In this document: positions 58,768 through 62,876 of the stretch, one piece after another | Layout: each line of letters begins with the position of its first letter | How positions within the stretch are numbered: position 1 is the first letter of the stretch | DNA from: an uncultured Bacteroidales bacterium | Lineage (GTDB): Bacteria; Bacteroidota; Bacteroidia; Bacteroidales; Coprobacteraceae | Length of the DNA stretch: 64,000 nt | Direction of reading: 5' to 3' | Assembly (NCBI GenBank): GCA_949297285.1 | Contig: CASFRL010000075.1 | Coordinates: forward strand, 1-64,000 | Notes under the pieces: model-generated | The model's database searches: none | What the model was told of the DNA's origin: nothing | The model's input: only the letters and a program-made list of their open reading frames with translations | Program-made: the position numbers and the translations under genes

Positions 58768-59373
58768 TTAGTCTGCATATTTCATCATTCGGCTGATATA
58801 TTTGCCGATAATATCGAATTCAAGATTTACGATACTGCCGACTGTAATCTGATGGAAATTGGTATGTTCGTGCGTATAAGGAATGATCGCTACCTGAAAA
58901 CTGTCGTCTTTAGAGTTACAAACCGTCAGACTGACACCGTTCACCGTTACCGAACCTTTTTCTACGGTCATATAGCCCTGTCGTGCTTTTTCTTTATCGA
59001 AATCATATACAAAAGTGTAATACCAGCTGCCGTCAGCCTCTTCTACGGCCGTACAACGAGCTGTTTGGTCGACATGTCCTTGAACGATATGACCATCTAA
59101 ACGACCGTTCATCATCATACTCCGTTCGAGATTGACTTTATCTCCGACTTTCAACAATCCCAAGTTACTCCGCTCAAGCGTTTCTTGAATCGCCGTTACA
59201 GTATATGTTCCTTGTTTTATATCCACTACGGTAAGACACACGCCGTTGTGTGCCACACTTTGATCTATTTTCAACTCGTCTGTAAACGAACACGAAAGGG
59301 TCAGATGCAAATTCCCCTGTTCATTTTTAAGAGCCACAACAGTAGCGGCTTCTTCTACAATTCCTGAAAACAT
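58768..59373 (-). CDS. ribE: riboflavin synthase, alpha subunit
   Basis: A 201-residue trimeric riboflavin synthase made of two lumazine-binding repeats. Repeat 1 begins MFSGIVEEAATVV and has VAHNGVCLTVVD and VNLERSMMMNGRLDGHIVQGHVD. Repeat 2 has GSVTVNGVSLTVCNS and IPYTHEHTNFHQITVGSIVNLEFDIIGKYI. It dismutates two lumazine molecules to riboflavin. The leader is short (promoter box TACTTTTG, minus strand, 59399-59406), so no FMN riboswitch is present. Confidence 0.96.
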   Translation of the reverse strand: MFSGIVEEAATVVALKNEQGNLHLTLSCSFTDELKIDQSVAHNGVCLTVVDIKQGTYTVTAIQETLERSNLGLLKVGDKVNLERSMMMNGRLDGHIVQGHVDQTARCTAVEEADGSWYYTFVYDFDKEKARQGYMTVEKGSVTVNGVSLTVCNSKDDSFQVAIIPYTHEHTNFHQITVGSIVNLEFDIIGKYISRMMKYAD

Positions 59374-59450: not shown

Positions 59451-59458
59451 TACATTTG
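59451..59458 (+). promoter_or_regulatory. promoter (-7 box) of the ATPase-TOPRIM/menA operon
   Basis: TACATTTG, 38 bases before the start; a T-rich CTTTTT box is about 17 bases upstream. The divergent ribE box lies at 59399-59406. Confidence 0.55.
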
Positions 59459-59495: not shown

Positions 59496-61076
59496 ATGGA
59501 AATCACGTTACCTCCCAAAAACGATTCATCGAAAAGAATTGTTTTACAGAATCCTCATAATATTGTTATAATCGGTGCAAATGGTGCGGGGAAAAGCCGT
59601 TTCGGGGAAAAAATAGAGCAAGAATATCCAGAACAAGCATTCCGTATATCTGCATTAAATTCGGTTTGCATTGTACCCGGTTCGTCAGAATCGCCCAACT
59701 CTATCGCCAGACAATTTAAAGACACATTCGGAGAGGATCCGGCGTTTCGTATTCAAACAGAATTTGAGCAATTGTTTTATCTTCTTCAATATGAAGAGTT
59801 CAAGACTTTGACAGAATATAAAGAACGACTGAGAAATGAAACCGGTGTGCCAATTCCGGTTACACGGCTCGACCGTACTCAGACCATTTGGGAAAAGATA
59901 TTCCCGCACAGCCGTTTATTGCGTAAATCGGACCGTCTGGAAATCGTGTCGGAAAAAAGTCTCAATCCCTACAATGCTTTGCGCATGAGTCAAGGCGAAA
60001 GAGTTGTGTTCTACCTGATTGCCGCAGCATTATTTGCAAACCCCAACTCTATTTTAATTATCGAAGACCCTGAAGTGCATCTTCACCGCTCGATTATGAG
60101 TACTTTATGGGATTACATCGAACAAGAACGACCCGACTGCACATTTGTGTATCTAACTCATGACATCGAATTTGCGACGACAAGATCCGGAGGAATACGA
60201 ATTTGGGTGAAATCGTATGATGCCGAACGCCATTCTTGGGATTATGAATTTATAGAAAACCAGGAATCGTTCCCCGAAGAAGTTTACCTCGAGCTGTTGG
60301 GAAGCCGAAAACCTATTCTTTTTATCGAAGGGACAGATTCGTCAAGTATCGATATAAAACTATATCCTTACATCTTTCCAGAATATATGGTGAAACCCCT
60401 CGGAGGATGTTCCAAAGTCATTGAAACGACCAAGGCTTTCGCCGAAATGAAAAACTTCCACCACCTCGATTCAAAAGGCATCGTCGATAGAGACCGACGT
60501 ACGTTGCGCGAAATCAAATATTTGAGAGAACGCAACATCTTCGTTCCGAACGTGGCGGAAGTAGAAAACTTATTGATGCTCGAACCTATCATACGGGTTG
60601 TTGCCCGACGGATGCTACAAAATGAAGATGAGGTATTTCATGCCGTCAAACAAAATGTTATCGCTCTTTTCAAGAAAGAGATCGAATCGCAAGCGCTATT
60701 GCATACTCGACACCGTACTCGCCGGGAAATCGAATACTCGATCGACCGTCGGTTGAATACTATTGAAGAATTTACTCACCATATAGAGACATTGACCGAT
60801 AATATCGATACCGACGCTATATACAAGAGTATTCTCAAAGAGTTTACCCAATATGTTCAAGACGAAGATTATCCTGCTATTTTAAGAGTGTATAATCAAA
60901 AGGGTATGCTTCCCCAAAGCCGGGTAACCCACTTATGCGGATTGGCAAATAAAGAAAAATATCTTAGCTTTGTACTTTCGATTTTGAAAGAGAACAAAGA
61001 TGATGCAGACATAATACGCAAGGCCATCCAAGCCTGTTTCGGTATTATGCAAGAAGGAAACGAAAAAGAAGTTTAA
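59496..61076 (+). CDS. ABC-type ATPase fused to a DUF4435/TOPRIM-like nuclease domain
   Basis: A 526-residue soluble protein with two parts. The N-terminal half is a compact ABC/AAA_21-type ATPase: Walker A GANGAGKS (27-34), signature MSQGE (164-168), Walker B ILIIED (186-191, with acidic residues Glu190-Asp191 and PEVHLH following) and switch LTHD (221-224). The C-terminal half (about 270-526) looks like DUF4435, a TOPRIM-type fold: LFIEG (Glu278), a VDRDR acidic pair (Asp331, Asp333) and VAEVENLL (Glu355, Glu357), the places where OLD and AriB nucleases bind metal. OLD/PARIS-type proteins combine an ATPase with TOPRIM in this order. It is followed by menA after ten bases. Function unknown; nuclease activity is inferred. 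Confidence 0.82.
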   Translation: MEITLPPKNDSSKRIVLQNPHNIVIIGANGAGKSRFGEKIEQEYPEQAFRISALNSVCIVPGSSESPNSIARQFKDTFGEDPAFRIQTEFEQLFYLLQYEEFKTLTEYKERLRNETGVPIPVTRLDRTQTIWEKIFPHSRLLRKSDRLEIVSEKSLNPYNALRMSQGERVVFYLIAAALFANPNSILIIEDPEVHLHRSIMSTLWDYIEQERPDCTFVYLTHDIEFATTRSGGIRIWVKSYDAERHSWDYEFIENQESFPEEVYLELLGSRKPILFIEGTDSSSIDIKLYPYIFPEYMVKPLGGCSKVIETTKAFAEMKNFHHLDSKGIVDRDRRTLREIKYLRERNIFVPNVAEVENLLMLEPIIRVVARRMLQNEDEVFHAVKQNVIALFKKEIESQALLHTRHRTRREIEYSIDRRLNTIEEFTHHIETLTDNIDTDAIYKSILKEFTQYVQDEDYPAILRVYNQKGMLPQSRVTHLCGLANKEKYLSFVLSILKENKDDADIIRKAIQACFGIMQEGNEKEV

Positions 61077-61086
61077 GATAATTTCT

Positions 61087-61956
61087 ATGATAAAGAACTG
61101 GTTAGAAGCGGCTCGACCTCGTACTTTACCGACATCGATAAGCCCGGTCATCGCAGCTTCGGCATATGCATGGCATCAAAATACTTTCGACGGATATGTA
61201 GCCGTTATATGCCTTATATTCGCCTTATTAGCCCAAATCGCTTCAAATTTAGGCAACGATTATTTCGATTACAAAAAAGGAAGCGACCGCGCCGACCGTG
61301 TAGGGCCTCGCAGAGCCGTGGCTTCGGGCGACATTTCACCCACAGCAATGCTTTACGCTACCGGTATAACGTTAGCTTTGGCTTGTATCACCGGATGCCT
61401 GCTTATTCCTATTGGCGGTTGGGAACTTATTGTCGTTGGTATCTTCATCGCATTTTTTGCCATAGCCTACTCTGCCGGTCCCTACCCCCTATCGTATCAC
61501 GGATTAGGCGATATTGCCGTGTTTATATTTTTCGGTCTTATCGCTGTCAATTTCACATTTTACGTTCAGGCACTATATTTTGATTGGCAGGTTTTCCTTT
61601 GCAGTATTGCCATGGGATTGTTATCGGTCAATATCTTAATGGTAAACAATTACCGAGACAAGGAAACCGATGAGGCTTCGAACAAAAGAACGCTCGTTGT
61701 CATATTCGGACGGAAATTTGCCGAATATGCATATCTTTCGAACGGTATCATCGCTTTATTGGCAACTTACCACATCTGGATTACCAATGGTATTCCGGGA
61801 TATATCGCTGCCCTTTTGTATTTAGGAATACATTTGAAAACGTGGAATAAATTAATAAAAAACAGAGGGACGGCATTAAATCCGGTCTTAGGGAAAACAG
61901 CCCGGAATCAGCTGATATTTACACTATTGCTCGTACTGATCATTATCATAAATTAA
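61087..61956 (+). CDS. menA: 1,4-dihydroxy-2-naphthoate polyprenyltransferase
   Basis: A 289-residue UbiA-family membrane prenyltransferase with eight or nine hydrophobic helices. The first aspartate motif NLGNDYFDYKKGSD and the second NNYRDKETDEASNKRT are the Mg-diphosphate-binding sites; ARPRTLPTSISPVIAASAYA at the N-terminus is typical of MenA. It attaches the isoprenoid tail to the naphthoquinone in menaquinone synthesis, the quinone of anaerobic respiration here. The other men genes are not in the window. It follows the ATPase-TOPRIM gene by ten bases, so the two are probably cotranscribed. Confidence 0.95.
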   Translation: MIKNWLEAARPRTLPTSISPVIAASAYAWHQNTFDGYVAVICLIFALLAQIASNLGNDYFDYKKGSDRADRVGPRRAVASGDISPTAMLYATGITLALACITGCLLIPIGGWELIVVGIFIAFFAIAYSAGPYPLSYHGLGDIAVFIFFGLIAVNFTFYVQALYFDWQVFLCSIAMGLLSVNILMVNNYRDKETDEASNKRTLVVIFGRKFAEYAYLSNGIIALLATYHIWITNGIPGYIAALLYLGIHLKTWNKLIKNRGTALNPVLGKTARNQLIFTLLLVLIIIIN

Positions 61957-61982: not shown

Positions 61983-62876
61983 ATGGCCTTTTCAAATATA
62001 TACGGTAAAGTCTCTTTCTGGACAAAGATATTCATCATGCTATGTGTCATGCTGGTAATGCTTATTGTGTCGGCATTGCTGACATGGGGATTCGACAAAT
62101 GCTTTCACACCATTTTATCCTTGTCTGATATTCTTATTGGAAGTATGTTTATACAATGTATTTTCCTTTTCTTTCTTACGGCTGTTATTTCTGCCGGATT
62201 ATTCAGCCCTCATCCGTTCAAATATTTGCAAATGGACAAGAGACCATCGCTGGGCGCAATTCTCGGAGTTATCGTCTGTATGATTGCGGTCATTCCATTT
62301 ATGAACCTGATCATCGACTGGAACCAGTCTTTGAAATTGCCCGAAAGTTTTTCGGCCATAGAGACATGGATTCGTGAAAAAGAAGCCGCCGCTCAATCTA
62401 TTACCGACCAATTGCTGGACATGCAATCTTTGGGAAATCTGCTGCTGATTGTGGTTGTTGTCGGTATCTTAACAGGTATCGGAGAAGAGAGTTTGTTCAG
62501 AGGACTTTTACAAAGGCTATTGTGGGAGAAGACAAAAAATCATCATGTTGCGATATGGGTCGGCGCGATTATATTCAGTGCCGTGCATTTTCAATTTTTC
62601 GGATTCGTTCCCCGTATGTTGCTCGGAGCATTTTTCGGTTATTTGCTTGTATGGTCGGGGAATATATGGTTACCGATAACCGCTCATTTTTTCAACAACA
62701 GCATGACTGTCGTATTCCATTATATAGAAGATAAAGGTTATGATCTTTCTTATTTCGAAGAAGTCGGCACTACCGGAAATGGGAGCTTATATATGGCAAT
62801 ATTCAGTCTTATACTCTTTATCCTATGTAGCGGCATCCTCTACAAATACGTAAAAAAAAGAGAGTCTGCATCCTAA
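61983..62876 (+). CDS. CPBP-family intramembrane metalloprotease
   Basis: A 297-residue polytopic membrane protein with about eight helices. The CPBP (Abi, CAAX protease) motifs are GIGEESLFRGLLQRLL (EExxxR), ISAVHFQFFGFVPRMLLGAFFGYLL (FxxxH-like) and ITAHFFNNSMTV (HxxxN/D). Members cleave prenylated or other membrane-embedded peptides; roles include peptide maturation and self-immunity. The gene is 26 bases past menA in the same direction. Confidence 0.9.
   Translation: MAFSNIYGKVSFWTKIFIMLCVMLVMLIVSALLTWGFDKCFHTILSLSDILIGSMFIQCIFLFFLTAVISAGLFSPHPFKYLQMDKRPSLGAILGVIVCMIAVIPFMNLIIDWNQSLKLPESFSAIETWIREKEAAAQSITDQLLDMQSLGNLLLIVVVVGILTGIGEESLFRGLLQRLLWEKTKNHHVAIWVGAIIFSAVHFQFFGFVPRMLLGAFFGYLLVWSGNIWLPITAHFFNNSMTVVFHYIEDKGYDLSYFEEVGTTGNGSLYMAIFSLILFILCSGILYKYVKKRESAS

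Follow-up and report, generated by a model that had tools for sequence, protein, structure and literature searches.

A fused PARIS-type gene, ariAB, is inherited as a chromosomal core gene, often directly before menA, in several families of Bacteroidales

Analysis of a window of 64,000 nucleotides (the whole stretch of contig CASFRL010000075.1 given above) and of related genomes shows that ariAB, the gene for a protein with an ABC-ATPase half and a DUF4435/TOPRIM nuclease half, is a vertically inherited, near-universal chromosomal core gene in these gut bacteria. We consider it about an even bet (probability roughly 0.5) that ariAB is a core-genome single-gene variant of PARIS that works by the mechanism proposed below, in which an ABC assembly would hold a TOPRIM tRNase in check with ATP serving as a clamp. 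The features of the locus are the following (window coordinates).

59496..61076, + strand: fused ABC-ATPase/DUF4435-TOPRIM protein of the AriAB type, 526 aa (P0001; ORF, PADLOC AriAB, Pfam, AF2 model with pLDDT 87.8)
59496..60290, + strand: ABC-ATPase half, residues 1-265 (best VIA match AriA, 8v45_B/8ux9_B/8v46_B, Z 14.9)
59574..59597, + strand: Walker A, GANGAGKS, residues 27-34 (K33 invariant in 57/57)
59988..59999, + strand: ABC signature, SQGE, residues 165-168 (homologue alignment)
60051..60074, + strand: Walker B region, ILIIEDPE, residues 186-193 (the catalytic-Glu position 191, at 60066-60068, is Asp; register from AriA D392-E393)
60159..60161, + strand: switch His222 (invariant in 57/57)
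60306..61004, + strand: predicted DUF4435/TOPRIM nuclease half, residues 271-503 (Pfam; C-terminal AF2 model with pLDDT 90.9; best VIA match AriB, 8v46_D, Z 9.6)
60327..60329, + strand: TOPRIM Glu278 (invariant in 57/57)
60486..60494, + strand: TOPRIM D331-R-D333 motif (invariant in 57/57)
60558..60566, + strand: Glu355 and Glu357 (invariant in 57/57)
59451..59458, + strand: TACATTTG, putative Bacteroidales-type -7 promoter element, 45 bp 5' of the ariAB ATG
61087..61956, + strand: menA, directly downstream of ariAB, conserved neighbour (NCBIfam menA)
61983..62876, + strand: CPBP intramembrane protease gene, third gene of the run (Pfam), kept in f1 and f29
58768..59373, - strand: riboflavin synthase alpha-type gene (RibE), divergent neighbour (Pfam Lum_binding), kept in f1, f88 and f109

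The ORF of 526 codons just before menA and the CPBP protease gene is as the sequence-only reading had given it, with 10 bp between the ariAB stop and the menA ATG (61087), and the window composition likewise shows no break at ariAB.

PARIS systems consist either of two genes in a cassette or of one fused gene (PMC9122126; PMC12409363), and single-gene AriA-AriB fusions were named by Rousset et al. 2022 (PMC9122126), whose rule for the fused form is AAA_15/AAA_21 plus DUF4435 in one protein above curated cut-offs. The window protein combines both domains, AAA_21 (43.4 bits) and DUF4435 (121.7 bits), each above the cut-off of 27. PADLOC's fused-PARIS profile AriAB (PDLC02982) aligned with residues 76-511 at 414 bits (E 2.8e-124), compared with 17 bits for the GajA profile, and it matched all 57 homologues with E < 1e-20. 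Judged by these profiles, the window gene belongs squarely to PADLOC's fused AriAB family. The sequence-only reading had recognised an ATPase/TOPRIM fusion related to PARIS and OLD, which agrees with Pfam, the PADLOC profile and the structural matches of both halves; its word "uncharacterised" has to be dropped, given the named fusions and the existing profile, and since fused PARIS has already been described the family is not new.

The gene was found in all genomes of the window's own family (f1, 5/5), of f109 (9/9) and of f88 (3/3), in six of eight genomes of f29 (4/4 good assemblies) and in 130 of 149 genomes of f26 (101/109 good assemblies; 28/30 genera), a few of these 130 matches being contig-end fragments or the long form alone. 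Judging by family size and genus count, f26 is putatively Muribaculaceae and f1 putatively Coprobacteraceae. Family f105, which contains Parabacteroides as identified by gene neighbourhood, has the gene in 35 of 80 genomes, distributed unevenly among genera. An even draw over the order gave 17 genomes with the gene out of 198, and a draw over the phylum gave seven out of 395: the resident type was present only in the window's own genome and a Parabacteroides-like one, and the other five matches were sporadic and divergent (29-37% identity). A scan of genome contigs with a single sequence gave only two loci; the wider genome search was used for the counts. The gene is absent or rare in g174 (0/4) and most of g152, both in f26, and g190 of f105 has none; because it has been lost in some genera, ariAB is not essential. 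A second, long-form relative with about 31% identity is present in only a few f26 genomes, a patchy distribution such as one would expect if PARIS is mobile.

The most recurrent neighbour is menA, no other gene recurring to that extent. It lies downstream of ariAB in 31 of the 60 loci tested; in 29 of these the gap measures -20 to +81 bp, and several of the pairs overlap. In f1, f29, f88, f109 and roughly half of the f26 loci menA comes immediately after ariAB in the same orientation, so that the ariAB-menA pair, which the sequence-only reading had pointed out in the window, is kept in five families. Mobile-element genes were not found among the recurrent neighbours in the loci tested. Where menA is not adjacent, the sampled neighbours are metabolic genes (deiminase, CN-hydrolase, DHO-dehydrogenase-like, glycosyltransferase), and in genomes lacking ariAB menA is found in other contexts. 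A TAnnTTTG element, which fits the Bacteroidales -7 promoter consensus, is located 38-53 bp 5' of the ATG in 15 of 16 loci from four families (expected 0.13-0.2 per 200 bp). The element suggests a common transcript for ariAB and menA. Two f26 genomes (loci L045 and L075) have about 1.1 kb between ariAB and menA, room for one gene.

The trees of AriAB and RpoB for 36 shared genomes have 14 of 33 splits in common (0.3 expected; Mantel r 0.78). The agreement is weaker when f26 is taken by itself (2/16 splits, Mantel r 0.61), so some exchange within this family is possible. The dN/dS ratio of the window gene and its nearest relative is 0.029, similar to neighbouring genes, with dS near saturation. 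The earlier suggestion of a resident rather than mobile gene is thus strengthened beyond its original wording by the distribution, the synteny with menA, the tree congruence and the lack of recurrent mobile neighbours. The window's assembly contains a second, partial rpoB on another contig (G000:C122), consistent with its listed contamination of 2.9%; relative G198 and the window contig are in agreement.

Defence genes are usually thought to be patchy and mobile. Relatives of the resident type were found in such contexts: a Synechocystis plasmid carries the closest of the outside relatives (41% identity); conjugative Campylobacter plasmids carry AriAB relatives beside a HicAB toxin-antitoxin pair; mobilizable 5-6 kb plasmids of E. 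coli and Salmonella have a divergent fused AriAB as almost their sole cargo (L151:232-1911; nuclease half 22% identity); and in the Oenococcus phage phi9805 (L122:2659-4539) a fused AriAB, annotated as an ABC transporter, directly follows holin and lysin, where accessory genes are typically found. Another fused AriAB (L038:931-10417; 34% identity to the window protein, canonical DEPE) is flanked by hsdS and hsdR in a type I restriction-modification (R-M) system, in line with PARIS guarding restriction. On a Paraburkholderia sabiae plasmid (L154:1381-9536) a fused AriAB comes directly behind a two-gene ariA-ariB pair, and genes for a PDDEXK (YhcG) nuclease and an EAD1 protein come next; the region resembles a defence island with two PARIS types.

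In PARIS, AriB is bound and kept silent by AriA until a phage anti-restriction protein frees it; the freed AriB dimerises and cuts tRNA-Lys, so that translation stops (PMC11455837; PMC12409363). For the resident protein we propose that the N-terminal ABC half binds ATP and that an oligomer of this half would keep the C-terminal TOPRIM nuclease in an inactive state. In response to a trigger, probably a phage protein, the ABC assembly would shift, the TOPRIM domains would pair to form an active two-metal ribonuclease, and cleavage of host tRNA, the presumed target, would halt translation. We infer the oligomer, the trigger, the tRNA target, the defence role and an impaired hydrolysis of ATP; the 6:3 architecture may not apply, because the insert of E. 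coli AriA is absent. In a more specific and only tentative form of this proposal, the whole clade would have domesticated PARIS: one AriAB, fixed before menA and equipped with an ATP-binding, essentially non-hydrolysing switch, would act as a permanent tRNase of innate immunity or translation surveillance.

Suicide defence genes are not usually retained vertically in nearly all genomes, and an ancestral fused PARIS could instead have been fixed and exapted as a housekeeping nuclease that now serves RNA/DNA metabolism or stress control and has no defence role. This reading, which we regard as rather unlikely, would fit a core, single-copy gene with a constitutive-looking promoter before menA, low dN/dS and an ATPase hydrolytic residue altered in the resident clade alone. 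A precedent is the archaeal OLD-family protein Cran1, which is essential for cell-cycle progression but apparently not for antiviral defence (PMC12796447). However, ariAB is dispensable, as seen from its losses in g174, most of g152 and g190, and its close architectural relatives are all in mobile or defence contexts. 

The active sites were compared in an alignment of 57 homologues, 56 from the resident clade and the R-M-linked L038. The TOPRIM acids E278, D331, D333, E355 and E357, the very pattern singled out by the sequence-only reading, are invariant in 57/57 and hence conserved among the orthologues aligned; K33, S165, E168 and H222 are equally invariant. Conservation is highest in the TOPRIM core, with a mean commonest-residue frequency of 0.77, as compared to 0.53 in the ATPase half. 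The window protein has the P-loop, the signature residues S165/G167/E168 and H222, but its ABC motifs, contrary to what had been supposed, are not complete: Walker B ends with E190-D191-P-E instead of the D392-E393-P-E of E. coli AriA, and the position of the catalytic Glu (AriA E393) is occupied by Asp191. In 48 of the 56 resident sequences the catalytic Glu is gone, and position 191 holds Asp, Ser, Asn, His or Ala; within the clade the canonical D-E pair is restricted to f29 and f3 (five sequences), and Parabacteroides has E-E. Outside the clade D-E-P-E is kept in all 25 alignable relatives: 14 from plasmids, a phage, the R-M operon and the long 635-aa form, seven from viral contigs and four from genomes elsewhere in the phylum. 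Sequences carrying or lacking Glu are not independent observations, and parsimony on the tree needs two changes for the loss of Glu, so the loss dates far back and has since been maintained; the residue for ATP hydrolysis disappeared on one or two occasions, at a deep level of the clade.

Because Glu is replaced in most of the clade and the P-loop, the signature, the switch His and the nuclease acids are kept, ATP may be mainly a bound clamp with slow or no hydrolysis. The resident AriAB probably acts as an abortive-infection tRNase that is controlled by the binding of ATP, not by its hydrolysis. The loss of Glu could also mean a changed function, since in E. coli mutation of predicted ATPase residues abolished PARIS defence (PMC9122126); the PDB includes an E393Q mutant of AriA (8v49). 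It is unlikely that the Walker B change is neutral, with Asp191 or another residue activating water and ATP cycling as in AriA: the window and several families do have an acid (Asp) at position 191, and f29 and f3 keep DEPE, but f26 shows Ser, Asn, His, Ala or Asp at this position, and residue 193 drifts there as well.

AF2 modelling gave a mean pLDDT of 87.8 and a pTM of 0.55 for the whole protein, and 90.9 and 0.86, respectively, for the C-terminal half alone. When Foldseek was run with the full model, the highest ranks went to retron and Septu ATPases, Gabija and OLD, but TM-scores were low; this outcome probably results from the uncertain relative placement of the two domains (pTM 0.55), a problem resolved by VIA re-alignment and by the separate C-terminal model. 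VIA re-alignment against the PDB put AriA at the top (Z 14.9, 220 residues, rmsd 3.4), with retron and Septu PtuA below. For the C-terminal model AriB ranked first (Z 9.6 and 8.7), followed by the TOPRIM regions of OLD (6.9) and GajA (6.0), the OLD C-terminal domains scoring 6.4-6.9. The match to AriB is moderate for this model (203 residues, rmsd 7.6 A; Foldseek E 0.018), and a PDB sequence search with the C-terminal profile found no AriB or OLD (best E 0.047, unrelated), so the AriB link of this half rests on profile and structure comparison. As both the acids and the fold are conserved, the C-terminal half is very likely a two-metal TOPRIM nuclease. From the P-loop Lys to the signature Ser the window protein has 132 residues, compared with 328 in E. 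coli AriA (K39 to S367); the AriA insert is therefore missing, as the compact size had led the sequence-only reading to expect.

It is improbable that the protein is a DNA nuclease like OLD or Gabija rather than a PARIS-type tRNase. The order of ATPase and TOPRIM is the same, and the TOPRIM half does match OLD and GajA, but AriB ranks above both with more residues covered, the AriAB profile far outscores that of GajA, and the neighbourhood has no helicase or reverse-transcriptase partner; an adjacent GajB UvrD-like helicase is absent, the neighbours being RibE, a nitroreductase, menA and the CPBP protease. A defence gene newly inserted beside menA is highly improbable. Plasmids and prophages do carry related fused AriABs, but the same junction in five families, the congruent trees, the lack of a composition break and the lack of recurrent mobile neighbours contradict it.

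The resident protein resembles fused PARIS (AriAB; PDLC02982; AAA_21 plus DUF4435) in domain order, profile score, nuclease acids and both folds, and differs in the replaced catalytic Glu of the window clade, in a short ATPase without the N-terminal extension and in being encoded by a vertically inherited core gene with menA and not by a mobile hotspot gene. The two-gene PARIS of E. coli B185 provides the best structural match for each half (AriA 8ux9_B, AriB 8ux9_A); the window protein differs from it in being one polypeptide with the shorter P-loop-signature distance and E-D-P-E in place of D-E-P-E (E393). Class 1 OLD and Gabija GajA likewise have an ABC ATPase followed by TOPRIM, but with lower structural scores; the window's TOPRIM half is of the DUF4435 type, and GajB is absent. 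Cran1 (PMC12796447), compared by description rather than by sequence, is likewise an OLD-type ATPase-TOPRIM protein encoded by a resident chromosomal gene, but of another class, essential, and a DNA nickase with an active ATPase. In the literature searched, with most subscription papers outside it, no PARIS gene described as core and linked to menA was found; as evidence of novelty this is weak.

What would be a PARIS-type suicide nuclease is inherited as a core gene, in a putative operon with menaquinone synthesis, by whole families of abundant gut bacteria, and defence surveys that score the resident AriAB as acquired PARIS would count a fixed gene. The frozen nuclease site together with the lost hydrolysis residue provides an experiment of nature on the question whether switches of the PARIS type depend on hydrolysis of ATP or on its binding only.

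The resident type was also found on sequences labelled as viral or plasmid. Two IMG/VR contigs, 3300006134_000089 and 3300006167_000179, carry it (L160:2989-7055), with bioA- and bioF-like aminotransferase genes directly after AriAB; a viral origin was rejected, and AriAB is probably the host flank of a prophage, not a viral gene, in both. The Parabacteroides distasonis "plasmid 89" (L120, NZ_OY725834.1) was not accepted as a true plasmid: it carries uvrA and the usual glycosyltransferase neighbour and is probably a chromosomal fragment labelled as a plasmid.
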